Source: Sphaerisporangium rubeum
GTDB taxonomy: Bacteria; Actinomycetota; Actinomycetes; Streptosporangiales; Streptosporangiaceae
Direction of reading: 5' to 3'
Length of the DNA stretch: 64,000 nt
NCBI RefSeq assembly: GCF_014207705.1
Contig: NZ_JACHIU010000001.1
Location: forward strand, 5,820,501 to 5,884,500
Shown: positions 24,584 to 44,939 of the stretch, in pieces
How positions within the stretch are numbered: position 1 is the stretch's first letter
Layout of the letters: each line of letters opens with the position of its first letter
Notes under the pieces: model-generated
What the model was told of the DNA's origin: nothing
The model's input: the letters and a program-made list of their open reading frames with translations, nothing else
Database searches by the model: none
Translations under genes and position numbers: made by a program

Positions 24584-25993
24584 GTGACAGAGACGCTCGA
24601 CGCGCATGAGAACCTGCAGAACGGCCGGCAGCAGCGAAGCCTCGCGCCTGAGGCGGCGCGCAATCTGGCGACCACGACCAAATCGCAGCCGCAAATGCAG
24701 AACATCTCTTCGAGATGGCTGCTGCGCATGCTGCCCTGGGTCCACGTCGCCGGCGGCACCTACCGCGTCAACCGCCGCCTCACCTACGACATCGGCGACG
24801 GCCGGCTCAGCTTCACCGTGCAGGGCGGCGACGTGCGGGTCGTGCCGCCGGAGCTGCGCGAGCTCGCGCTGCTGCGCAGCTTCGACGACGACTCGGCGCT
24901 GGAGGCGCTCGCCGACCGCTTCACGCAGGAAACCTACGAGCCCGGCGACGTCATCGTCGAGCGCGGCGGGGCCGCCGATCGCGTCGTCCTGATCGCGCAC
25001 GGCAAGGCCAGCAAGATCGGCGCCGGTGAGTACGGCGAGGAGACCATCCTCGCCGTCATGGCCGACGGCGAGTACTACGGCCAGGAGGCCATCGCCTCCA
25101 CCGACCCCGGCACCTACGAGCACACCGTCAAGGCGGTCACCGCGACCACCGCGCTCAGCCTGTCGCGTGCCGACTTCCAGGAGCTCATGGGACAGTCGGA
25201 GTCGCTGCGCGAGCACGTCGCCGCGCAGCGCGCGGGCCACCGGCCGCCGCACAACAAGCTCGGTGAGGCGGCGATCGCCATCACCTCCGGCCACTACGGC
25301 GAGCCCCTGCTCGACGGCACGTTCGTCGACTACGAGACCTCGCCGCGCGAGTACGACCTCAGCGTCGCGCAGACGGTGCTGCGCATCCACTCGCGGGTCG
25401 CCGACCTGTACAACCAGCCGATGAACCAGACGCACCAGCAGCTCCGCCTCACCGTCGAGGCGCTGCGCGAGCGTCAGGAACACGAAATGATCAACAACCG
25501 CGAGTTCGGGTTGCTGCACAACACCGACCTGCGCCAGCGCATCCAGACCCGCACCGGCCCGCCGACGCCGGACGACATGGACGAGCTGCTGTCGCGGCGG
25601 CGCAGGACCAACATCTTCCTCGCGCACCCGCGCACCATCGCCGCCTTCGGCCGCGAGTGCAACAAGCGCGGCCTGTACCCCGACACGGTCGAGCTCAACG
25701 GCCACGCCATCCCCGCGTGGCGTGGCGTGCCGGTCCTGCCGTGCAACAAGATCCCGATCAGCAAGACCCGCACCAGCTCCATCCTCGCCATGCGGCTCGG
25801 CGAGGAGGACCAAGGCGTCATCGGCCTCCACCAGACCGGTCTGCCGGACGAGTACGAGCCGAGCCTGTCGGTGCGGTTCATGGGGATCGACGACCAGGCG
25901 ATCATCTCCTACCTCGTCAGCGCCTACTACTCGGTGGCGGTGCTCGTGCCGGACGCTCTCGGCGTGCTGGAGCACGTCGAGATCGGCCACTGA
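24584..25993 (+). CDS. Family 2B encapsulin nanocompartment shell protein with cNMP-binding-like insertion
   Basis: Encapsulins self-assemble into icosahedral protein shells that enclose cargo enzymes. This 469-residue protein has the family 2 N-arm ([24 protein letters not shown]), a CRP-like cyclic-nucleotide-binding domain at about residues 115-205 ([28 protein letters not shown]) that defines subfamily 2B, and the HK97-like remainder ([30 protein letters not shown]). The GTG at 24584 fits the family start (TETLDAHE); the frame is open 15 bases further upstream from a TTG. It is directly followed by a polyprenyl synthase gene, which matches known 2B operons containing terpenoid enzymes as cargo. 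Whether the insertion binds a nucleotide is unknown. Confidence 0.93.
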
Positions 25994-27284: not shown

Positions 27285-29942
27285 TCAGGACAGAGCCGGG
27301 TAGGCGTTCGCCATGAGCTGGCGGAACTGCGCGGAGAACCACGCACCGGCGATCGGAGCGTCCGGCAGCGCACCAGTGGGGTTGTTGCCGTTGAGCGCGT
27401 TGCCACCGTAGGTGGGGTCACACATCCGGTCGAAGCCCTTGCCCTGGTCGTTGGGGATCTCCTGGCTCGCGCCGTCCGACTCACCCGGGGGCTTGATCCA
27501 CACGTAGGCGTCGATACCGGTGGCGGGGTTCGCCCTCGGCCGCTCGCCGATGCCGGCACCGCTCTGGTTGCACCAGTTGCCGGCGTGGATGCGCCTGTCG
27601 ACCTTCGACTGGTTGACGAAGGTGTTCAGGTCGGTCGAGGTGCTCGGACCGGACGGCCGGGCCGAACCGCCCCAGCCGTTGCGGCCGGTGTCGATCAGCA
27701 TTCCGATGGTGCTGGGGAAGCCCAGCGACACCAGGCGGGTGCGGAAGGCCTGAGCGAAGGTCAGCTCGTCGATGTACATGTTCCAGTCGACCCAGCGGGA
27801 CTGCCGGATCTGCTGGCCGTTCACCGTGCCGTTGACCGTGAAGTACGGCTCGGTGAGCGCGGAGTAGTTGGAGGTGTTGGTGATGAAGCCGGTCACGCTG
27901 TTGAAGCCGGCGGTGGTGCCGCGGATGGTCGAGGCGAACAGCTCGGCCGACGGGCCGAAGTTGGTGTCCCAGCCGAGCCAGCCGTGGTGCGCGGCGTCGA
28001 TGTAGTTGTAGGTGTTGCCGAGCGGGTACAGCTTGTTCAGCGCGTACTGCACACCCTGCACGTAGGCACCGGAGCTCTGCGCCTCGGCGCAGGCGGCGAT
28101 GTTGGTGTTGGTGACCAGGTTCGGCAGCGAGTCGATCTCGATGATGTTGACGATCCGCAGGTTCCGGTAGGCCGGGTCCGCCATGATCGCCGCGATCGGG
28201 TCGATGTACTCGGCCTTGTACCGGGCCAGGCCGTTCTCGGAGATCTTCAGCTCGCCGTTGGAGGCGAGAGCCGAGCAGTCACGGTTCGGCAGGTTGTAGA
28301 TGACGAACTGGATCGTCACCGCCGAGCTGCCGTTGGCCGCGTCCTGGCGGACGGCCTCGTCCAGGTGTGCCTTGACACCCATGGCGGTGCTGGTGCCGGC
28401 GATGGCGGCGATGCGGTCGATCCACACACCGGTGGAGTAGTTCGAGACGCGGGTGCCGCCGGGCTCGGCCGCGGCCTTGCTCGACCAGTCGGGGTTCACG
28501 TAGCCGGTGGCGCCGACGTACGGGTTGTCCACGCGGGTCGGGGTCGTGCCGCCGTCGTCGTCGGACTCGGTCGCGGTGACCGCCACCGAGGTCAGACCGG
28601 AGGAGGCCACGTTGATGGTGCGGCTGCCGTTGGTCTGGTCGGAGTCCTGCGCCGCGGCGAGCGTCACTGTCTGCGGGGTCTGCCAGTTGGACGTGGTGAA
28701 CGTCAGGCTCGCGCCGCTGCTGACCGTGATGTCGGTGTCACCGGAACCGGCGGTGTTGGTCACCGTCACGCTGCCGCTGGGGGCGATCGCCAGGCGCACG
28801 GTGTAGCTGGCGGTGCCACCCTCGGGGACCGTCACGGCGGTCTGGGAGACCACGAGCGACTGGGTGCCCTGGCTGGTGTCGTCGTCGGCCTCGGTCGCGG
28901 TCACGGAGATCGAGTTCAGGCCGGAGGAGGCGACCGTGATGGTACGGCTGCCGTTGGTGGTGTCGGAGTCCTGCGCCGCGGCCAGCGTCACCGTCTGCGG
29001 GGTCTGCCAGTTCGACGTGGTGAACGTCAGGCTGCCGCCGCTGCTGACGGTGATGTCCGAGTCACCGGAACCGGCGGTGTTGGTCACCGTCACGTTGCCG
29101 GTGGGAGCGATCGCCAGGCGCACGGTGTAGCTGGCGGTGCCACCCTCGGGGACCGGCACGGCGGTCGGGGAGACCAACAGTGACTGGGTGCCCTGGCTGG
29201 TGTCGTCGTCGGCCTCGGTCGCGGTGACCGTGACCGGGGTGATGCCGCTGGCCGCGACCGAGAAGGTCCGCGTGCCGTTGGTGGTGTCGGAGTCCTGCGC
29301 GGCCCGCAGCGTCACCGTCTGCGCGGTCTGCCAGTTCGACGTGGTGAACGACAGGCTGCCGCCGCTGGCGACGGAGAGGTCGGAGTCACCGGAGCCGGCC
29401 GTCGTGGTGACGGTCACGTTGCTGCTCGGCGCGGAGGACAGGCGCACGGAGTAGGTGGCGGTGCCACCCTCGGGGACCGTGACGCTGGTCGGGGTGACGA
29501 CCAGGCTCGGGGTCTGGTTCTGGCCACCGTTGCACGGGGTGCCGTTGATGGCGAACGAGCTCGGGTTGGTGTTGGTGCCGCTGTAGGTGCCGTTGAAGCC
29601 GACACTGAAGGTGGCTCCCGTGCCCTGGCTGCCGTTGTACGACGCGTTCCGCACGGTCACGTTGGAGCCGGACTGCGACCACTCGCCGTTCCAGCCGTTG
29701 CTGACCCGCTGACCGCTCGGAAAGGGGAAGGTGAGTGTCCAGTTGCTGAGCGGGTCGCCGGTGTTGCGGATGGAGATCTCGCCGCCGAAGCCGCCGCCGC
29801 CTTCCCACGACTTCGTATACGTGACCTGGCAGTTGACCGCCGCGTGCGCGGCCGTCGGACCGGCGACGAGCCCGACGGCGGTGGCGAACATGACCGCCGC
29901 CCCCGCCATGGCTCTGCGCCAGAAGCTCTTGTGGGGTCCCAT
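27285..29942 (-). CDS. Secreted GH6 cellulase (cellobiohydrolase-type) with CBM2 and three repeat modules
   Basis: This is a secreted 1,4-beta-glucanase acting on cellulose. Residues 1-34 are a Sec-type signal peptide ending AHA. Residues about 35-138 are a cellulose-binding CBM2 (SWEGGGGFGGEISIRN, CNGG closing cysteine). Residues about 142-455 hold three near-identical beta-sandwich modules of about 108 residues (VTVPEGG start, VTATEADDD end), like Calx-beta modules. Residues about 460-885 are GH6, with NRDCSALASNGE around a catalytic aspartate and IEIDSLPNLV. The ATG at 29942 is supported by an upstream GAGGGAG. A CebR-type operator lies about 90 bases upstream, implying induction by cellobiose. 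Confidence 0.95.
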   Translation of the reverse strand: MGPHKSFWRRAMAGAAVMFATAVGLVAGPTAAHAAVNCQVTYTKSWEGGGGFGGEISIRNTGDPLSNWTLTFPFPSGQRVSNGWNGEWSQSGSNVTVRNASYNGSQGTGATFSVGFNGTYSGTNTNPSSFAINGTPCNGGQNQTPSLVVTPTSVTVPEGGTATYSVRLSSAPSSNVTVTTTAGSGDSDLSVASGGSLSFTTSNWQTAQTVTLRAAQDSDTTNGTRTFSVAASGITPVTVTATEADDDTSQGTQSLLVSPTAVPVPEGGTASYTVRLAIAPTGNVTVTNTAGSGDSDITVSSGGSLTFTTSNWQTPQTVTLAAAQDSDTTNGSRTITVASSGLNSISVTATEADDDTSQGTQSLVVSQTAVTVPEGGTASYTVRLAIAPSGSVTVTNTAGSGDTDITVSSGASLTFTTSNWQTPQTVTLAAAQDSDQTNGSRTINVASSGLTSVAVTATESDDDGGTTPTRVDNPYVGATGYVNPDWSSKAAAEPGGTRVSNYSTGVWIDRIAAIAGTSTAMGVKAHLDEAVRQDAANGSSAVTIQFVIYNLPNRDCSALASNGELKISENGLARYKAEYIDPIAAIMADPAYRNLRIVNIIEIDSLPNLVTNTNIAACAEAQSSGAYVQGVQYALNKLYPLGNTYNYIDAAHHGWLGWDTNFGPSAELFASTIRGTTAGFNSVTGFITNTSNYSALTEPYFTVNGTVNGQQIRQSRWVDWNMYIDELTFAQAFRTRLVSLGFPSTIGMLIDTGRNGWGGSARPSGPSTSTDLNTFVNQSKVDRRIHAGNWCNQSGAGIGERPRANPATGIDAYVWIKPPGESDGASQEIPNDQGKGFDRMCDPTYGGNALNGNNPTGALPDAPIAGAWFSAQFRQLMANAYPALS

Positions 29943-32853: not shown

Positions 32854-33375
32854 ATGACGACGACGACGGTCCCAGAGTTCAAGGACCTCATCGCGCAGAC
32901 CCGTTTCTCGGCGCTGCACCTGGAGATGCGCGACCAGTACACCCCCAAAGGCGCGGTCTTCGTGGACTGGAAGGCCGGCGTCCCCATCGAGCTGGAGCGG
33001 CACCAGGCGTGGGTCGACCTGGTGGGTGAGACCATCGGACGCGGGGTGGACTGGCGCCGTGCGCGCATCGTGTCGGAGCCGGTGACCGAGTTCATCCGGT
33101 ACGAGCACGAGACCACCACCATCGTGAACGTCCCCGCCGGGGAGAACGTGCGGTGGCTGCCGCGGCGGTTCGCCTCCGACCTGCTGCTGCCCGGCAACGA
33201 CTTCTGGGTGTTCGACGAGAAGCTGGTGCGGTTCACCCACTTCACCGGGGACGGCGCGTACGGGCCGCACGAGCTGACCGACGACCCGAGGATCGTCAAG
33301 GCGTGCCTCGAGGCGTTCGAGGCCGTGTGGGCCCGCGCGATCGACCACAAGGACTACGAGCCGGTCTCCGCCTGA
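32854..33375 (+). CDS. DUF6879 family protein
   Basis: This is a 173-residue protein of the actinobacterial DUF6879 family, with the landmarks ALHLEMRDQYTPKGAVFVDW, RARIVSEPVTEFIRYEH, AGENVRWLPRRFASDLLLPG and NDFWVFDEKLVRF. Such proteins are frequent in actinomycetes, often beside helix-turn-helix regulators, but no biochemical role is established to my knowledge. Here it precedes a truncated globin gene by 25 bases and may be co-transcribed with it. The ATG at 32854 has CGGAGG upstream. Confidence 0.8.
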   Translation: MTTTTVPEFKDLIAQTRFSALHLEMRDQYTPKGAVFVDWKAGVPIELERHQAWVDLVGETIGRGVDWRRARIVSEPVTEFIRYEHETTTIVNVPAGENVRWLPRRFASDLLLPGNDFWVFDEKLVRFTHFTGDGAYGPHELTDDPRIVKACLEAFEAVWARAIDHKDYEPVSA

Positions 33376-33400
33376 GGACGTCCGCCGAACGGGAGGTCCC

Positions 33401-33922
33401 ATGCCGTCACAGGTGCCCGCGCACGACGGGAAGGTCCTGCTGGTCGCCGACCAAGGCGTCAAGCCGGCCGAGCACATGACCGCGTCCGAGGTGGACGCGA
33501 AGGTCGACGACTTCTACACCGGGATCGGTGGCGCGGCGTTCTTCCGCGCGCTCGCCACCCGGTTCTACGAACTGGTCTCCAAGGACGACCTGCTGCCGGC
33601 GCTGTTCCCCGTGCACGACTGGACGCGGCACGCCGACCGGCTGGCCGAGCACTACCTGCGGATCTACGGGGAGAACGACCTGACGGCGGCGTGGGACCCG
33701 CGGATGCACCAGGCGCACGCGCACATGCTCATCAGCCGTGACCACCGGCTGCGGTGGCTCGCGCTGATGCGGGAGGCCGGGACGTCGCTGGCCGCGCCTG
33801 AGCCGTACTTCACCGAGTTCATGACGATCATGAAGATCGCCAGCGGGGAGATGATGGCGGTGTCGCGCGGCGCGGCCATCGCCAGGGGCCAGCGCTTCCA
33901 CTGGGACGGTTCACCCCGATGA
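33401..33922 (+). CDS. Truncated (2-on-2) hemoglobin, group II-like
   Basis: This heme-binding globin of 173 residues carries an N-terminal extension of about 35 residues. The fold markers are GGAAFFRALATRFYELV (helices A/B), LLPALFPVHDWTRHADRLAEHYL and the proximal-histidine segment MHQAHAHMLISRDHRLRWLALM, the pattern of group II truncated hemoglobins that bind O2 or NO. GGGAGG lies close before the ATG. The stop overlaps the start of a flavoprotein monooxygenase gene (ATGA), so the two are coupled. The flavoprotein might reduce or use the globin; that is inference. Confidence 0.86.
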   Translation: MPSQVPAHDGKVLLVADQGVKPAEHMTASEVDAKVDDFYTGIGGAAFFRALATRFYELVSKDDLLPALFPVHDWTRHADRLAEHYLRIYGENDLTAAWDPRMHQAHAHMLISRDHRLRWLALMREAGTSLAAPEPYFTEFMTIMKIASGEMMAVSRGAAIARGQRFHWDGSPR

Positions 33923-35562
33923 CGCCGCCGGCCCGGGTCGCGGTCGTCGGCGCGGGGGCCGCCGGCGCGTTCTTCACCCTGGAACTGGCGCGTCTGCTGC
34001 CGGAGGCGACCGTCGAGCTGTACGACCGCGCGGAACGCTCCCCCGGGGCCGGCATCGTGATGTCGTGGGAGTACGCCGAGAAGGTCAAGGCGGCGCACCC
34101 GGAGGCGTTCGCGCTTCCGGACGCCGCCATGGCCACCTGGGACCGCACGCTGACCGTGGTGGGGGACGAACGCATCTGGTCCGGCGCGTACGGCATGTTC
34201 GGCCTGACCCGGCGGGTGTTCCGGCGGCACGCCGCCGAGCTCGCCGCGCGGCTGCCGAACGTGCGTTTCCTGCGGCACGACGTGCGCAGCCGGCCGGCCG
34301 GCGCCGATCTCGTGGTGGTGGCCGACGGCGCCGGCAGCCGCTTGCGCGGCCGGTACGGCGGCCCGTTCGGCACGCGTGGCACACCCGGCGCCACCGTCTT
34401 CCTGTGGATGCGCACCCCGGCCGTCCTCGACCCGACGTTCGTGCTGCGCTCCTGTGGCCCCGGCCTGCTGATCGTGCACTCCTACCCGCATGGCGCCGCC
34501 GAGAGCACGTTCATCGTCGAGGCCCACCCCCGCACCCTGGACGCGCTCGGCCTGCTGGACCGGCCGCTCCCCGAGATCGAGCGCGAACTCGCCGCCATCT
34601 TCGCCGGCGAGCTCGGCGGCGCTCCCCTGCACTCGCAGACGTGGGGCTGGCGTGCCTTCCCCACCATCGTCAACGAACGCTGGCACACCCGGCAGGACGA
34701 CGGCCACACCGTCCTCATCGGCGACGCCGCGCACACCACCCACTTCTCCATCGGCTCCGGCACCGCGCTCGCCATCGACGACGCCTTGACGCTGGCCCGT
34801 TCCCTGGCCACCTGCCGCGACCTCCCCACGGCGCTGGCCGACTACGAGTCCACCCGCCGTCCCGTCGTCACCGCGGCCCAGGCCGAGGCACGCGAGAGCC
34901 GCCAGTGGTTCGAGACCCTCAGCCTCCGTCCCCGCCTCAACGGCCACCAGACCGTCTTCGCTCTGCGCAGCCGCCGCACCGCCAACACCTACTCCCGCCT
35001 CAGCTCCCACGACCCGGCCTTCACCACAGCCCTCCTGAGAACCCTCACCGACGACCCCACCACCCCGGCGAACCTCCCCCTGACCGTCGGCCCTCTCCAC
35101 CTCACCGGCCGGACGGCCACCGTGGACGGCGCCGCCGAGGTGGTGCTCCCCACGACGGCGGGAGACGTCCGGTGCGCGGTCGCGGACGGGCCCCCCGGCG
35201 AGGCGGCCTCCGTGCCGGCGTGTGTCCTGGTCGAGGTGAACGACCGCAGTGACGTCGGGGAACTGGTGCGCGCGTACCGCGCGGCGGGCGCGTGCGCGGT
35301 GGGGCTGCTCGTCCGCGAGGACGTGCCGTTGAAGGAGCCGCACGGCGCGGACCTTCTCGCGGTGCCGGTCCAGCCGGGCAGCGGCCGGGTCGAGCGGACG
35401 CGACTGGCCGACCGGCTCAGGTACGACCACCGGATCCCGGTCCTGCTCCTCACCCCGCAGGAGCTTCCGCAGGACGAGATCGACACGCTCATCGCCGCGG
35501 GCCGTATCGACCTCGTGGCCACGATCGGCCCGCGGGACATGGCGCGCATCCCGGCCCGTTGA
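33919..35562 (+). CDS. FAD-dependent monooxygenase with shortened C-terminal flavin-reductase-like region
   Basis: Residues 1-380 are a group A flavoprotein hydroxylase: GAGAAGAFF dinucleotide motif at about 11-19 and GDAAHTTHFSIGSGTALAIDD near 272, the latter close to 2-aminobenzoyl-CoA or salicyloyl-CoA monooxygenases. In those enzymes an old-yellow-enzyme barrel of about 350 residues follows. Here only about 160 residues remain, ending with DRLRYDHRIPVLLLTPQELP and LIAAGRIDLVATIGPRD, which look like the last strands of such a barrel. So the reductase half appears internally deleted or reduced. It is coupled to the globin gene. Substrate unknown. Confidence 0.75.
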   Translation: MTPPARVAVVGAGAAGAFFTLELARLLPEATVELYDRAERSPGAGIVMSWEYAEKVKAAHPEAFALPDAAMATWDRTLTVVGDERIWSGAYGMFGLTRRVFRRHAAELAARLPNVRFLRHDVRSRPAGADLVVVADGAGSRLRGRYGGPFGTRGTPGATVFLWMRTPAVLDPTFVLRSCGPGLLIVHSYPHGAAESTFIVEAHPRTLDALGLLDRPLPEIERELAAIFAGELGGAPLHSQTWGWRAFPTIVNERWHTRQDDGHTVLIGDAAHTTHFSIGSGTALAIDDALTLARSLATCRDLPTALADYESTRRPVVTAAQAEARESRQWFETLSLRPRLNGHQTVFALRSRRTANTYSRLSSHDPAFTTALLRTLTDDPTTPANLPLTVGPLHLTGRTATVDGAAEVVLPTTAGDVRCAVADGPPGEAASVPACVLVEVNDRSDVGELVRAYRAAGACAVGLLVREDVPLKEPHGADLLAVPVQPGSGRVERTRLADRLRYDHRIPVLLLTPQELPQDEIDTLIAAGRIDLVATIGPRDMARIPAR

Positions 35563-35648
35563 CACGCCGCACTCTCGAAGATGCTCCGCGACCGGCGAAG
35601 CGGAACAGTGGTGGGGATCGATGCGGCCGGTCGGATCCAGGAGGGTCA

Positions 35649-36752
35649 GTGACGGACATCGTCATGGAACGGAGAACCCGATCGGGGCTCGTCGTGCGGG
35701 ACGGCCTGCCGGACGACTGGGACGACCAGGCCGGCGCGGGCCCGGCGACGCTCAGCGCCAGATGGATCGGCCTCGCGGCCCCGCGACTCCCCGGCGGCCT
35801 GCGCACGTTCGCGCTCTACGACGACGACCGCCTCTCGGTGGCCTTCACCGGCGGCGTCCAGGACGCGCCGAACGGCCACCCCCGCTTCGACCCCCACATG
35901 ATCCTCACCGGCGCGTCGGCCCCGGAAGGGGTGGCCGAGCACGGCCCGCACCCCTGGCGCCACGCCGACCCGGCGGACCTCTTCCCCTGCCTGCTGATCA
36001 TGTTCCCCAACTACGAGACCGCGCCGGCCGGCCCCGACGCCAAGGACCCCCAGGCGGCGCGTCGTTTCATCGGCGCGCTGAACACCTGGGCCGAGGACAA
36101 CGGCATCCGTACCGTCGTCTATCTGTACCTGCGCAGCGACCACCCCGAGTTCGCCGGGGCCCTCGCCGAGACCGGCCACACCCTCGTCCCCATGATCGAC
36201 CGGTGCGACATGCCGGTCACCTGGACCGGCTTCGACGGCTACCTGCGCACCCTCTCCCGCAACAAGCGCACCGCCGTACGCCGCGAGCTCCGTGAGATCG
36301 CCGAACGCGGCATCACCGTCACCGAACGGCCGTTCGGCGACGAGGAGGCCGAGCTGATCGGCCTGCGCTGCAAGCTCGTCGCCAAGTACGGCGGCACCCC
36401 CGACCCCGAGCGCGAGGCGACCTCGCTGCGCTACCTGCGCGACCACTTCGGCGGCGGCGACCTGCTCGTGGTCGAGGCGCGCAAGGACGGCAGGATGCTG
36501 GCCTTCAGTCTGTTCATCAGGGACGGCGACAGCCTGACCGTCCTGATGAACGGCACCGACCACGACCACCCCGACGCCTCGTTCGTCTACTTCGCGACGA
36601 TGTTCTACCGTCCCGCCGAGCTCGCCCCCGCACTCGGCGTGCGGACCATCGGCTACGGCATCGGGACCGTCGCCGCCAAGAAGTCACGCGGCTGCACGAC
36701 GGACACCCTCTACGCGGCCGTCCGGACGAATCAACGATGGGAGACGTCTTGA
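35649..36752 (+). CDS. GNAT/FemAB-like acyltransferase
   Basis: This is a 367-residue protein with a FemAB/GNAT-type acyltransferase arrangement (the peptidogalycan or BioF2-like group). Key segments are the helix YLRTLSRNKRTAVRRELREI, the strand pair LLVVEARKDGRMLAFSLFI and LTVLMNGTDHDHPDASFVYF, typical of acyl-donor-binding FemAB-like folds. The start GTG at 35649 has AGGAGGG upstream. The stop overlaps the start of the following MFS transporter gene by 16 bases, so the pair is co-translated. The neighbourhood (MFS exporter, PIG-L deacetylase, repeat peptide) suggests it modifies a secreted small molecule or peptide; this is inference. Confidence 0.75.
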   Translation: MTDIVMERRTRSGLVVRDGLPDDWDDQAGAGPATLSARWIGLAAPRLPGGLRTFALYDDDRLSVAFTGGVQDAPNGHPRFDPHMILTGASAPEGVAEHGPHPWRHADPADLFPCLLIMFPNYETAPAGPDAKDPQAARRFIGALNTWAEDNGIRTVVYLYLRSDHPEFAGALAETGHTLVPMIDRCDMPVTWTGFDGYLRTLSRNKRTAVRRELREIAERGITVTERPFGDEEAELIGLRCKLVAKYGGTPDPEREATSLRYLRDHFGGGDLLVVEARKDGRMLAFSLFIRDGDSLTVLMNGTDHDHPDASFVYFATMFYRPAELAPALGVRTIGYGIGTVAAKKSRGCTTDTLYAAVRTNQRWETS

Positions 36753-38020
36753 CCGTCACCAAGGAGAACGAGGCCGCGTCCCCGCCGTCGTCGTTGCGCG
36801 ACCGCCTGTCGCGGCTGCTGCCGCCGGCGGGTCCCGGCCGGCTGCTCGTCGTCTGCTCGGCCGTGTCCAGCGTCGGCAACGGGCTGTACCTGTCGGGGTC
36901 GGCCGTGTACTTCATCCGCGAGGTCGGGCTGTCGTCCAGCCAGGTCGGCATCGGCCTGTCCCTGATCGGCCTGGCGAGCCTGCCGATCAACGTGCCGCTC
37001 GGTCACCTCGCCGACCGGTTCGGCCCCCGCGAGGTCACGGTCGCGCTGACGCTCGCCAAGGTCGTCGCGCTCGGCCTGGTGACGCTGGTCGCGAACTTCC
37101 CCGCGTACCTGCTGGTGGTGGGCCTGCTCGGCATCGCCGACAGCGGCGGCCAGGTGTCACGCGGCGCGCTCATCTCCGGCCTGATGGGCCGCGAGGGCCG
37201 GGTGAAGCTGTCGGCGTACCTGCGGTCGGTGTTCAACGCCGGCTTCACGCTCGGCGTGCTCGCGGCCGGCGTCGTGATCGCCATCGACACGCGGCCCGCG
37301 TATCTGTCGCTGATGTGGGGAAACGCGCTCGCGATGCTGGTGGCGGCGGCGCTGTACCTGCGGCTGCCGAGGGTCCCCGGCACGCGCGGCGACAAGGCGC
37401 GGGACGGCGACGGCGGCTGGCTGTCGCTGCGCGACTGGCCGTACCTGGCGGTCGCGCAGGTCGCCGGCATCGCGCGTCTCGGCCCGGTGCTCGCCGCCGT
37501 GGGCCTGCCGGTGTGGCTGGTCACCCAGACCGAGGCGCCGCGCGCGCTCGCGGCGTGGCTCATGGCCATCAACACGCTGATGGTGGTGTTCCTGCAGGTC
37601 CGCGCGGCGCGCGGCGCGGACACCGTCGCGGGTGCGGCCCGGCTGCAACGCTGGACGTTCCTCGGGCTCGCCGCCGCCTGTGTGATCACCGGCCTCGCGG
37701 CGGGGGTGCCGGCGGTGACCGCCACCGTGATCATGGTGGTGGCCATGGTCGTGTTCTCGCTCGGCGAGATCTGGGGGGAAGGCGCGCGGTGGGGCCTGCG
37801 GTACGAACTGGCCCCCGACCACGCGCAGGGCCGGTACGGCGGCCTGTTCTCCACCGGTGACGCGCTCGCCGCCGTGGCGGGCCCGACGCTGGTGACCCTG
37901 CTGCCTGAGCGGTTCGGCCTCGGCGGCTGGGCCGTGCTCGCCGTGCTGTTCGCCGCGGGCCTGCTGCTCAGCGGCCCGGTCATCCGCTGGGCCGAGCGCA
38001 CCCGTCCGGTGGCCGCCTGA
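36737..38020 (+). CDS. MFS transporter
   Basis: This 427-residue transporter has twelve predicted membrane helices. The MFS motif between helices 2 and 3 reads GHLADRFGPREV, confirming the family. The N-terminal 35 residues are cytoplasmic and polar. It is coupled to the FemAB-like gene and converges on the PIG-L gene with only seven bases between stops. It most likely exports a product made by its neighbours; the substrate cannot be read from the sequence. Confidence 0.87.
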   Translation: MGDVLTVTKENEAASPPSSLRDRLSRLLPPAGPGRLLVVCSAVSSVGNGLYLSGSAVYFIREVGLSSSQVGIGLSLIGLASLPINVPLGHLADRFGPREVTVALTLAKVVALGLVTLVANFPAYLLVVGLLGIADSGGQVSRGALISGLMGREGRVKLSAYLRSVFNAGFTLGVLAAGVVIAIDTRPAYLSLMWGNALAMLVAAALYLRLPRVPGTRGDKARDGDGGWLSLRDWPYLAVAQVAGIARLGPVLAAVGLPVWLVTQTEAPRALAAWLMAINTLMVVFLQVRAARGADTVAGAARLQRWTFLGLAAACVITGLAAGVPAVTATVIMVVAMVVFSLGEIWGEGARWGLRYELAPDHAQGRYGGLFSTGDALAAVAGPTLVTLLPERFGLGGWAVLAVLFAAGLLLSGPVIRWAERTRPVAA

Positions 38021-38027
38021 CCACCGG

Positions 38028-38759
38028 TCACACGCCGATCATCTCGAACGCGATGGCGGGGGTGCCGCCGAACCTGCGGCCGAACCGTTCGACCTTGGCG
38101 AGCAGGAAGCCGCGCGCGTCCGCCATCGGGTGGTCCTCGCCGAGGGCCGGCAGGTAGGACCGGTGGGCCTCCAGCGCGGCGACCCCCTGGTCGATGGTGC
38201 CGGTGACGTCCACGGCGTGCCGCGCGTACGGCGAACCGCCGACGGCCGCGTACCGCACACCGGACCACGGCCGCAGGCCCTTCTCCAGCAACTCGGGGAA
38301 GATCCAGCGGTTTCCCGCGTCCGCCGCGGCGTCGAGCGCGGCGGTGCCGACATTTCTGTGGTCGGCGGAATTCCAGTCGCCGCTGCGCCAGCGTTCGTGG
38401 TGGTTCAGCGTCACCAGGATGTCGGGCTGGTACGTGCGGATGGCGGCGGCGATGTCGCGGCGCAGCGGCAATCCGTATTCGATGACGCCGTCGCGGTGAC
38501 CGAGGAAATCGACCTTGTCGACCCCGACCACCGCGGCGGCCTCGATCTGCTCGCGCGCACGCACCCGTCCCGCCTCCTCGGGGGTCATCGTGTCGATCCC
38601 CGCCTCGCCGCGGCTGGCGATGACGTACACGACCTCCTTCCCCGCGGCGGTCCAGGCCGCCACCGCGAGCGCCGGCCCGTACTCCAGATCGTCCGGATGG
38701 GCCACGACCGCCAGGGCCCGCCCCCAGTCGTCCGGCATCGGGACGTACGGCTCTGCCAT
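38028..38759 (-). CDS. PIG-L family deacetylase
   Basis: PIG-L (LmbE) enzymes are zinc-dependent N-deacetylases acting on N-acetylglucosaminyl or related groups, as in mycothiol biosynthesis. The zinc motif AHPDDLEYG sits at residues 20-28, and the third ligand histidine is in SADHRNVG near residue 133. At 243 residues it is of average length. It lies 150 bases downstream of the VWD-repeat peptide gene on the same strand, behind a hairpin that may reduce read-through, so the two probably share a transcript. Confidence 0.87.
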   Translation of the reverse strand: MAEPYVPMPDDWGRALAVVAHPDDLEYGPALAVAAWTAAGKEVVYVIASRGEAGIDTMTPEEAGRVRAREQIEAAAVVGVDKVDFLGHRDGVIEYGLPLRRDIAAAIRTYQPDILVTLNHHERWRSGDWNSADHRNVGTAALDAAADAGNRWIFPELLEKGLRPWSGVRYAAVGGSPYARHAVDVTGTIDQGVAALEAHRSYLPALGEDHPMADARGFLLAKVERFGRRFGGTPAIAFEMIGV

Positions 38760-38840
38760 GTCTCACCTTCTCCTTTCCTTTCGTCCGCGCGAGGCGGCAC
38801 GGATCGCGTCCTGGCTGGTGGGGCCGGGTGACCCGACCGC

Positions 38841-38869
38841 GGGCCGGCGGCGTGGCACGCCGCCGGCCC
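38841..38869 (-). terminator. Attenuator-like hairpin between the VWD peptide gene and the PIG-L gene
   Basis: GGGCCGGCGGCGT (38841-38853) and ACGCCGCCGGCCC (38857-38869) form a perfect 13-base stem with a three-base GGC loop. It lies 40 bases behind the peptide stop. A partial terminator directly after a small peptide gene is a common way to make far more peptide mRNA than downstream enzyme mRNA. Confidence 0.7.
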
Positions 38870-38908
38870 CGGCCAGGCGGACCCGGTCCGCGGACGGTGT
38901 CGCCGGCG

Positions 38909-39127
38909 TCAGTCCCAGACCTTCGCCTCGTCCCACACCTCCAGCCGGTCCCAGACCTTCAGCTCGTCCCACACCTTCAGCTCGTCCCAGACCTCGAACT
39001 CGTCGAAGACGCGGCGCAGCTCGGCGCGGTCCCAGACCTCGTACCGGTCCCACACCTCGTGGCGGTCCCACACCTCCTGGCGGTCCCACACCTCGAGCTC
39101 GTCCCAGACCTTCTGTGCCATCGGCAT
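38909..39127 (-). CDS. Repetitive 72-residue peptide of six-residue VWD repeats, candidate RiPP precursor
   Basis: After a short opening MPMAQK, the peptide is almost wholly a six-residue repeat of the form VWD-[ER]-x-[EK]. It reads VWDELE, VWDRQE, VWDRHE, VWDRYE, VWDRAE, an interruption LRR, then VFDEFE, VWDELK twice, VWDRLE, VWDEAK and a terminal VWD. The DNA shows a matching 18-base period on the minus strand (CGTCCCAGACCT-like units). The ATG at 39127 is preceded by AAAGGG; an ATG two codons later is also possible. I recognise no family. The multi-core look, the following hairpin and the neighbours (PIG-L, MFS, FemAB-like) suggest a ribosomally made and modified peptide, but no classical RiPP enzyme is adjacent. 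Confidence 0.72.
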   Translation of the reverse strand: MPMAQKVWDELEVWDRQEVWDRHEVWDRYEVWDRAELRRVFDEFEVWDELKVWDELKVWDRLEVWDEAKVWD

Positions 39128-41730
<2,603 letters not shown>

Positions 41731-43610: not shown

Positions 43611-44939
43611 ATGGCCGTCAAGCAGTTGATACCGCGCAAGCGGGTCAGGCACGAGGAGTTACCCGAGTCCCCGTCGAAGGCCCCGTCGAAGGCCCCGTCG
43701 AAGGCCCCGTCGAAGGCCCCGTCGAAGGCCCCGGTGGCGGTGGAGCCGCCGGACCGGTGGCGTCCGGGTCCCCTCGACCTGCCGGACTGGGGGGAGCTTG
43801 AGGCGAAGGCCGTCGCCAAGGGAGCGGCGGACGCCAAGAGTCCGGGCTTCGACTCGGTCACGTTGAAGACGCAAGGGTACGAGCCGCCGCATCTGCTGGT
43901 GCTGGACGCGCAGCGGCAGCAGGCGATCGAGGACGTGCACGCGCTCCTGGCCCGTCAGGAGCACGAGGCCCGTGCCGCGCGCGCGGCGCACGGCAAGCGT
44001 GCCGAGGCGGTGGCGGAGGACTACGTCCGCACCCGCGCCGTGCACGAGGTGGCGAGGGGCCGGGTCGAGAGCCTGGAGATCGGGCCGTCGCAGTGGCCGG
44101 GTGACGGCAAGCCGAGCTCGATCGCGCTCGGCGGCGGGTGGCGGGAGGCGCTGCGCTCGTGGGGGGTGCCGTTCCTCCTGCTGCTCGTGCTCCTCACCGT
44201 CGAGGTCCCCATCTACTACGCGACGTTCCTGAACTGGGGTGAGACGACGGTCATGACGTACGCGCTGGCCATCGGCGCGATCTTCGTGTTCGTCTTCGGC
44301 CCCCACATGTACGGCCGCAAGTTCCGCGAGTGGCAGGAGTTCCGGGGACGGCGCAGGCACGGCCAGGAGGACACCCGGCGGCGCGGGCTGGCGGGCCGGC
44401 CGGTGATCCTGTTCCTCATCCCGGTGATCTGGCTGCTCGCCATCGGCGCGGTCGCGTCGCTGCGGCTGCTGCTCATCGGCGACGTCGTCTACATCGACGC
44501 GGACGGCAACGAGCAGCGCATGCCGAGCGCGATCGACGGCTGGGGCCTGGTGCCGACGGTCATCCTCGTCACCGCGCTGATGATCTTCACGGCGCTGATC
44601 GCGACCGAGCTCGGCCGCCGCATGGGCAACCCCAACGACCGCGCGCTCACCGAGCACCGGGCCCATCTGCACCGGACCGGCCAGACGCTGGCCGCCGCGC
44701 AGGCACGCCAGGAGGAGTGCGACGCGTACGCCATGGAGCTGGACCACTTCCTCTCCACCGTCGACGAGACCCGTGAGCGGTACACCACGCGGATCGAGGG
44801 GGGCTACGACCACGTGGAGACCGTCTACATGGACGCCTTGATCAGCGGGGTCGACGACCCCAAGGCGTCGCTGTTCGGGCCGTCGGTCCTGGACCGGCAC
44901 CAGCGCCGCCGGCACGACCACAACCAGTCCGACACCTGA
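43611..44939 (+). CDS. Ter-operon membrane protein with APSK repeats
   Basis: This 442-residue protein has a basic N-terminus with five or six Ala-Pro-Ser-Lys repeats, a helical region at about 95-150 (coiled-coil-like, QQAIEDVHALLARQEHEARA), then four predicted membrane helices (for example WGVPFLLLLVLLTVEVPIYY, YALAIGAIFVFVFG) and a C-terminal helical stretch. I recognise no catalytic motif. It precedes TerD by ten bases and so belongs to the Ter unit. It may be the membrane platform for TerD-like proteins, which is inferred from location. Confidence 0.65.
   Translation: MAVKQLIPRKRVRHEELPESPSKAPSKAPSKAPSKAPSKAPVAVEPPDRWRPGPLDLPDWGELEAKAVAKGAADAKSPGFDSVTLKTQGYEPPHLLVLDAQRQQAIEDVHALLARQEHEARAARAAHGKRAEAVAEDYVRTRAVHEVARGRVESLEIGPSQWPGDGKPSSIALGGGWREALRSWGVPFLLLLVLLTVEVPIYYATFLNWGETTVMTYALAIGAIFVFVFGPHMYGRKFREWQEFRGRRRHGQEDTRRRGLAGRPVILFLIPVIWLLAIGAVASLRLLLIGDVVYIDADGNEQRMPSAIDGWGLVPTVILVTALMIFTALIATELGRRMGNPNDRALTEHRAHLHRTGQTLAAAQARQEECDAYAMELDHFLSTVDETRERYTTRIEGGYDHVETVYMDALISGVDDPKASLFGPSVLDRHQRRRHDHNQSDT
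43671..43730 (+). repeat. Five-copy 12-base tandem repeat encoding Pro-Ser-Lys-Ala
   Basis: The unit CCGTCGAAGGCC is repeated five times without interruption and adds four residues per copy to the N-terminus of the membrane protein. A short perfect repeat of this kind is prone to slippage and may vary in length between strains. Confidence 0.9.

Follow-up and report, generated by a model that had tools for sequence, protein, structure and literature searches.

A short gene of Sphaerisporangium rubeum encodes a 72-residue peptide with ten Val-Trp-Asp (VWD) units (38909-39127, minus strand), and together with six neighboring genes it forms a conserved, co-inherited cassette. The window referred to below is the whole stretch of DNA that was analyzed (64,000 nucleotides of contig NZ_JACHIU010000001.1), and coordinates are those of the window unless another locus is named. 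Homologous peptides with 4 to 16 VWD units were found in nine other genomes, and genes for a DUF6879 protein, a globin, an FAD monooxygenase, a FemAB/GNAT protein, an MFS exporter and a PIG-L protein were all present in 10/10 genomes with an intact array (tblastn plus gene calling). On balance, and with somewhat better than even confidence, we read the VWD gene as a repetitive, nearly leaderless, multi-copy precursor of a peptide-derived natural product, the Trp (or Trp-Asp) units of which would be oxidized, trimmed and exported.

Translation of the minus-strand frame (MPMAQK-VWDELE-VWDRQE-VWDRHE-VWDRYE-VWDRAE-LRRVFDEFE-VWDELK-VWDELK-VWDRLE-VWDEAK-VWD) confirmed the 72 residues and ten VWD hexapeptide units given in the preliminary description of this DNA: there are ten exact VWD motifs and one VFD, at successive VWD spacings of 6, 6, 6, 6, 15, 6, 6, 6 and 6 residues. 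The six-codon DNA period that it reported was recovered by TRF as an 18/36-bp array under the gene, and holds at the peptide level except for the one spacing of 15. The leader-like opening that it described is there, yet is just six residues long. A codon-usage gene caller chose the same frame and start; the open frame extends upstream to a TTG at 39181, so that the start given here is a predicted one. When the residues of the peptide were shuffled 20,000 times, the maximum was three VWD motifs compared with ten in the real peptide. These shuffles, the homologues and the conserved motif exclude a chance or wrong-frame open reading frame, and the 106 exact VWD motifs across ten homologous loci support the frame. 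The window peptide contains no Cys, Ser or Thr (2 to 11 Ser plus Thr and 0 to 2 Cys in other family members). Its predicted structure has a mean pLDDT of 47.8 and is helical where predicted, with no confident fold; no signal sequence was evident by eye.

A six-frame protein search (E value of 0.01) of 297 genomes of the window's family matched 21 genomes, six of which carried VWD arrays (the own genome, G162, G191, G185, G187 and G220); the weak matches in the other 15 were rejected, with no VWD array in the locus retrieved. One of these 15, L013, proved to be three scattered loose-pattern matches inside a large protein. A scan of genome contigs returned seven loci, comprising arrays in Streptomyces t39, man185, albus NRRL F-4971, scopuliridis RB72 and NTH33 and in one Microbispora, plus a rumen bacterium locus (L032) that was set aside as lacking an array. 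The Microbispora locus (L031) and that of G187 (L037) are one contig with an identical peptide and were counted once, so that VWD arrays are recorded from 11 genomes, ten intact and one decayed (G220). The intact set spans two actinobacterial families and consists of the window, five Streptomyces, the one Microbispora, a genus that like the window falls in the Streptosporangiaceae, and three more members of the window's family (G162, G191 and G185). The ten intact peptides hold 10, 14, 15, 4, 16, 14, 11, 9, 8 and 5 VWD copies (106 in total), a variation in repeat number that the preliminary description had proposed to look for. Spacings are mostly 6, with 5, 10, 12 and 15 also occurring; arrays are as short as 30 residues and peptides as long as 125. 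All 108 Trp residues are followed by Asp, and are preceded by Val in 106 cases, by Thr in one and by Ser in one; VFD is present twice. The Val codons of the 106 VWD motifs are mixed (79 GTC, 25 GTG and 2 GTT), which implies that selection acts at the amino-acid level. Net charge (K+R minus D+E) ranges from -5 to -17. Between 6 and 17 residues lie ahead of the first VWD, and the N-terminal openings are similar within Streptomyces and dissimilar between groups. The dN/dS ratio between the G162 and G191 peptides was only about 0.5, from 14 changes. A separate frame of AQTWPV hexapeptide repeats in G135 (L041, 9561-9938) matched the VWD query weakly on the opposite strand; none of six cassette proteins was matched at that locus by tblastn.

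The six conserved genes lie beside the peptide gene. The first (32854-33375, plus strand) encodes a DUF6879 protein (PF21806, 6e-50), by its Pfam name a family of unknown function, which we propose as a peptide- or ligand-binding protein. Its predicted structure has a phospholipase-D-like fold, the HxK(x)4D catalytic motif is missing from all ten cassette sequences, and a sequence search against solved structures returned nothing better than an E value of 0.23. The second (33401-33922, plus strand) encodes a truncated-globin-like heme protein with an N-terminal extension (PF01152, 6e-11; nearest solved chain 2bmm, 1e-13); to our knowledge, the roles of actinobacterial truncated globins are mostly unassigned. 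It overlaps by 4 nt, in 10/10 genomes (in L029 with an upstream start rather than that of the gene caller), with the gene of an FAD monooxygenase (33919-35562, plus strand) that has a C-terminal extension of ∼150 residues and whose nearest solved relative is VioD (phmmer, 6e-30; profile, 4.7e-46, compared with 6e-10 for the protein ranked after it). A kynurenine-type scheme, with the globin as dioxygenase, PIG-L as deformylase and the flavoprotein as kynurenine hydroxylase, appears improbable on this comparison (VioD at 4.7e-46 versus kynurenine 3-monooxygenase at 3.5e-9). Next are a FemAB/GNAT-like acyl- or aminoacyltransferase (35649-36752, plus strand; PF13480, 3e-9, and PF04339, 1e-8, scanned as the longer frame 35292-36752), which had no match among solved structures at 0.01, and an MFS exporter (36737-38020, plus strand; PF07690, 4e-28) with a homologue in all nine other genomes. 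The last is a PIG-L (LmbE-like) deacetylase or amidase of a cassette-specific subfamily (38028-38759, minus strand; PF02585, 6e-25). Pfam thus bore out the PIG-L, FemAB-like and MFS neighbors named in the preliminary description, which had left out the globin, the FAD monooxygenase and the DUF6879 protein (32854-35562), all part of the conserved set. Its statement that no classical RiPP enzyme is adjacent stands for the families scanned (Pfam and NCBIfam), but overlooked the oxidative pair of globin and VioD-like flavoprotein. No class-defining RiPP maturase was found among the window's cassette proteins in Pfam and NCBIfam (for the flavoprotein, among the best 25 of 41 NCBIfam families); the similarity of the flavoprotein to the methanobactin enzyme MbnF (21 bits, with a cutoff of 800) is general flavoprotein similarity. 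No PqqD-like Pfam match was found among the cassette proteins scanned, a search that weak recognition domains may escape. The core cassette has no protease gene. An anti-phage defense role was rejected, as 0/7 proteins matched PADLOC defense models at 1e-5.

Co-occurrence of PIG-L, FemAB and MFS genes with VWD peptides, which the preliminary description had suggested examining, was found in 10/10 intact-array genomes. The FemAB homologue was located by tblastn in eight other genomes (nine loci) and by gene calling in G185. Cassette proteins are 53 to 98% identical across the set. In G185 the cassette is complete and split by >50 kb on one contig, with globin, flavoprotein and MFS beside the peptide (L036) and PIG-L, FemAB and DUF6879 in L083. 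The peptide gene lies upstream of enzyme genes on the same strand in Streptomyces, where FemAB is next, and in G185 and Microbispora, where the globin is next. In the window the peptide gene points the same way as PIG-L, and in G162 and G191 the two converge. Pairwise distance matrices of six cassette genes correlate at 0.75 to 0.93, which partly reflects shared descent and is not independent proof of co-function. Searches in the reverse direction, from enzyme to array, drew on thin and partly overlapping genome samples, and their frequencies apply within these samples. Cassette-type PIG-L (at least 77% identical) occurred in 5/297 genomes of the order, including the own genome, all five with VWD arrays; the copies elsewhere are 77 to 78% identical, and the remaining matches reach 64% at most (128/297 genomes match at all). 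Cassette-type FemAB was confined to the own genome among 394 of the class, where three genomes matched and the other copies were 32 to 37% identical; among 392 Streptomyces genomes two had it at 59%, both with arrays, and three had copies at 35 to 44% with no array seen in the cluster. Distant FemAB relatives (L086 to L091, 30 to 46% identical) were discarded as belonging to other clusters in which no VWD array was found. The globin profile, at an E value of 1e-25, matched 1/394 genomes (the own genome), 1/15 Microbispora and 1/130 relatives of G654, all with arrays.

Several other genes near these loci deserve mention in their own right. Divergent from the VWD gene is a two-domain terpene cyclase (39478-41730, plus strand) that scores 1,154 bits against a cutoff of 1,200 for the NCBIfam family 2 encapsulin cargo; it was rejected as a member of the system, having a relative among loci L026 to L042 only in G220 (L035). 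Similar 47-residue peptides ending in TTCTDCVPNY are encoded in clusters that contain another FemAB-like gene in the own genome (L091, 19266-19409) and in G005 (L089, 1306-1449) and possibly belong to a second, different peptide pathway. In both close relatives the VWD gene is adjoined by a gene (L033, 10142-11401; L034, 10045-11304) whose product, as we read it, resembles a proline iminopeptidase-type hydrolase and is a candidate trimming enzyme. Elsewhere in the window, the sole Rfam match was a full-length one to Sernc350, a Saccharopolyspora antisense RNA (24647-25131, minus strand; 183 bits), unrelated to the VWD gene. A 324-bp tandem repeat of 2.9 copies (28554-29498) lies within the gene of an 885-residue protein (27285-29942, minus strand), and a 12-bp repeat of 5.4 copies with 100% matches (43669-43733) encodes SKAP repeats near the start of a 442-residue protein.

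The decayed array is in G220, a congener of the Microbispora. There the flank is collinear with 3069-9536 of L031, and the VWD-like gene follows this flank with one gene between. Its product has 12 Trp residues, only five of them in VWD and nine before Asp. None of 60 cassette proteins matched the 31-kb contig of G220 at an E value of 0.01, and the genome had no globin match at 1e-25. Such a pattern would look like relaxed constraint after enzyme loss, if the cassette was formerly present.

In six genomes (the five Streptomyces and G185) a TrmO-like gene lies inside the cassette (the L026 copy is PF01980), and these same genomes encode a related type I polyketide synthase (PKS), the third protein of which is 67 to 79% identical in G185, G650 and G654. 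In 4/6 (G185, G651, G652 and G653) the PKS adjoins the cassette, whereas in G650 and G654 the two are on separate contigs. The contiguous four also carry, on the same contig, deoxysugar-type genes, which we name from their sequence rather than from a domain scan, and flavoprotein homologues of CmlS/QhpG type (L036, 4507-5676, and homologues in L101, L102 and L104), related to CmlS, QhpG, LodB and GoxB and situated in the PKS/VWD clusters. The five Streptomyces further have PigD- and PigE-like genes, an ACP and a FabF-like synthase; in a family scan of L028 PigE was above its cutoff and PigD below (784 versus 950 bits), and G185 had no PigD match. In the window, G162, G191 and Microbispora the cassette occurs and this PKS does not (PKS matches at most 49% identical, or none at an E value of 1e-100), and with these four genomes the cassette looks like a self-contained module able to combine with other clusters.

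A strong GC-rich hairpin (38831-38880, minus strand), a proposed partial terminator or attenuator, begins 29 nt and ends 78 nt past the stop codon of the peptide gene. Its stability (-88.8 kcal/mol; z score of -3.18; 0/200 shuffles as good) supports the stable, attenuator-like hairpin noticed earlier, and over 20 kb of sequence only 0.05% of the 50-nt windows fold as stably as its best 50 nt. The associated claim, that hairpin and peptide gene lead into PIG-L on the same strand, is true of the window and fails in the nine other genomes, the coupling being peculiar to the window. Strong hairpins follow the peptide gene in 7/10 loci (the window, G185 and the five Streptomyces), where strong means a best 50-nt fold within 150 nt downstream that no more than 1.7% of blocks of like size attain, a line set after the values had been seen; these folds begin 13 to 97 nt past the stop codon. 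The hairpin is weak in G162 and G191 (5 and 11% of blocks) and absent in Microbispora (L031, 53%). In the five Streptomyces 97.3% of pairs are kept with two compensated pairs, for which the control is modest (13/500 shuffles reach the covariation score and 75/500 the number of compensated pairs). The FemAB start given by the gene caller in L026 precedes the hairpin, and comparison with L030 indicates that the gene caller set it too early. The window hairpin lacks a T-run and does not appear in a terminator scan of 36000-40500; the promoter and terminator scan of that interval found no sigma-70 site and one terminator-like site, at chance level and away from the hairpin. In RiPP operons the precursor gene is usually separated from the enzyme genes by a leaky stem-loop.

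The reading of the VWD gene as encoding a precursor peptide, raised in the preliminary description, is strengthened by the presence of the cassette in 10/10 genomes and by the range of 4 to 16 repeats; the modification itself we infer. With Trp in practically every unit and no Cys, Ser or Thr in the window peptide, Trp oxidation by the globin and flavoprotein would be the simplest chemistry. The DUF6879 protein, with its degenerate phospholipase-D fold, may hold the VWD peptide while the translationally coupled globin and VioD-like flavoprotein oxidize the indole of each Trp, most simply by ring hydroxylation as in VioD. FemAB would add an acyl or aminoacyl group and PIG-L would take one off, as tailoring, protection or release, and proteolysis between units would yield a small molecule derived from Trp or from Val-Trp-Asp. 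An exporter of MFS type suggests a small final product; such an exporter is not expected to carry the whole peptide, and trimming must therefore be assumed. This product might be exported by the MFS protein or, in the larger clusters, be joined to or work alongside a polyketide. Tandem VWD copies would give more yield per precursor, and the hairpin would keep precursor mRNA in excess over enzyme mRNA. The chemistry may instead take place at Asp, which is as constant as Trp, and the part of the globin could be limited to oxygen supply or NO detoxification. Against the precursor reading count the apparently poor leader (6 to 17 residues ahead of the first VWD, with openings unlike between groups), a core set free of proteases and of any RiPP maturase recognized by Pfam or NCBIfam, a dN/dS ratio of only about 0.5 between the G162 and G191 peptides, and a hairpin that is absent in Microbispora, weak in G162 and G191 and free of a T-run.

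The strongest rival, though an unlikely one, is a scaffold or docking protein in which the VWD units, as short linear motifs, would bind one or more cassette enzymes and bring them together while staying chemically unchanged. Free variation in copy number and linkers, an acidic chain and the lack of a confident predicted fold would suit such beads on a string, and strict W-D conservation also suits a binding motif. A scaffold has no need of a strong hairpin after its gene, however, and 4 to 16 units with the same enzyme set better fit substrate dosage, without being decisive; we know of no comparable scaffold that accompanies a metabolic cassette. It is less probable still that the peptide as such is the final product, either a Trp/Asp-rich binder of metal, heme or a product or an immunity sponge. 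Its acidic, Trp-rich composition and the constant presence of a heme-type protein in the cassette are in keeping with this, and six genomes hold a related PKS whose product the peptide could sequester, but four carry the cassette and lack that PKS, inspection by eye shows no signal sequence, and the modification enzymes are left unexplained. We think it improbable to a further degree that a Trp-rich frame and hairpin form a trp-type attenuator that senses charged tRNA-Trp, the peptide being irrelevant. Many Trp codons are indeed followed by a very stable hairpin, yet in the seven loci with a strong hairpin this begins 13 to 97 nt past the stop, beyond the reach of a ribosome halted at most of the Trp codons; each Trp has Asp after it and 106/108 have Val before it, although the Val codons vary; the peptides reach 125 residues; and the next gene differs (PIG-L, FemAB or globin) and is convergent in G162 and G191. 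A structural repeat protein, the alternative given in the preliminary description, is disfavored, with arrays down to 30 residues, a hexad phase broken by spacings of 5, 10, 12 and 15, and no confident fold in the predicted model; the broken phase also speaks to a hexapeptide left-handed beta-helix, for which the model (pLDDT of 47.8) is too poor to judge the fold. A chance array beside unrelated genes can be dismissed as scarcely credible: GC-rich genomes readily give rise to low-complexity tandem repeats and the window has others, but conservation of the cassette in two families and 10/10 genomes, with at most three VWD in 20,000 shuffles, already contradicts it.

The precursor reading places the cassette beside several known systems. 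As a short peptide gene conserved with tailoring-type enzymes in 10/10 intact-array genomes it resembles RiPPs in the broad sense. It lacks the class-defining maturase (Pfam, NCBIfam) of any named class, and the window peptide, with no Cys, Ser or Thr, could not provide a lanthipeptide, thiopeptide or azol(in)e core; the cassette thus appears to resemble RiPP pathways in logic and to fit no named class. VioD of violacein biosynthesis hydroxylates a free indole intermediate. It is the nearest solved relative of the cassette flavoprotein (PDB 3c4a and 8gqr; residues 6 to 354), which differs in having an extra C-terminal part and in being encoded with a peptide gene. LysW-type amino-group carriers are small, acidic ribosomal carriers with Trp beside acidic residues on which metabolites are built, features that the VWD peptide shares in being small, acidic and ribosomal with Trp beside acidic residues; they have a single C-terminal attachment site and an ATP-grasp ligase, whereas no ATP-grasp was found in the cassette scans. 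Four further systems are comparable. TvgA is a TVGG-repeat precursor in which TvgB repeatedly forms cyclopropylglycine (PMC9062424), so that a short repeated motif has one kind of residue modified repeatedly; the enzyme is a radical-SAM protein acting on Val in TVGG, whereas the VWD cassette is Trp-centered, has the globin and flavoprotein, and gave no radical-SAM match in the scans. QhpG, of cysteine tryptophylquinone biogenesis, dihydroxylates peptidyl Trp and is thus an FAD enzyme that hydroxylates Trp within a ribosomal polypeptide (PMC7876137), but it acts on an enzyme subunit that has a single target Trp, and the cassette flavoprotein is closer to VioD. Crocagins are very small Trp-derived alkaloids from a ribosomal precursor with peptide-binding proteins that may derive from aminopeptidases; they differ in a 21-residue precursor with a leader, a single three-residue core and other enzymes (PMC10070186). 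In the ammosamide/PEARL pathway, peptidyl Trp on a scaffold peptide is oxidized by a flavin-dependent enzyme (PMC11117183), but that Trp is appended by tRNA-dependent ligases, while the many Trp residues of a VWD peptide are encoded by its gene, and the scans listed no ligase family of this kind. A literature search by title and start of abstract, with subscription papers outside its range, gave no paper on the VWD peptide or cassette among the matches listed, and a string search of the literature for DUF6879 and five VWD hexamers had no match.

A new class of ribosomal product, with a globin and VioD-like flavoprotein acting as a coupled pair on every Trp, a degenerate phospholipase-D protein as holder, and freed Trp units that serve by themselves or are built into a glycosylated and possibly halogenated polyketide, is a tentative proposal that we hold with well under even confidence. 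If the precursor reading is true, the cassette adds a repeat-type, almost leaderless precursor without a known RiPP maturase. As a defined set of seven genes it poses the question of whether a truncated globin can itself modify peptides or support an enzyme that does, and it makes the roles of DUF6879 and of the actinobacterial truncated globin testable. The PKS-linked cassettes raise the further question of whether ribosomal peptides may be a source of building blocks for polyketide assembly.
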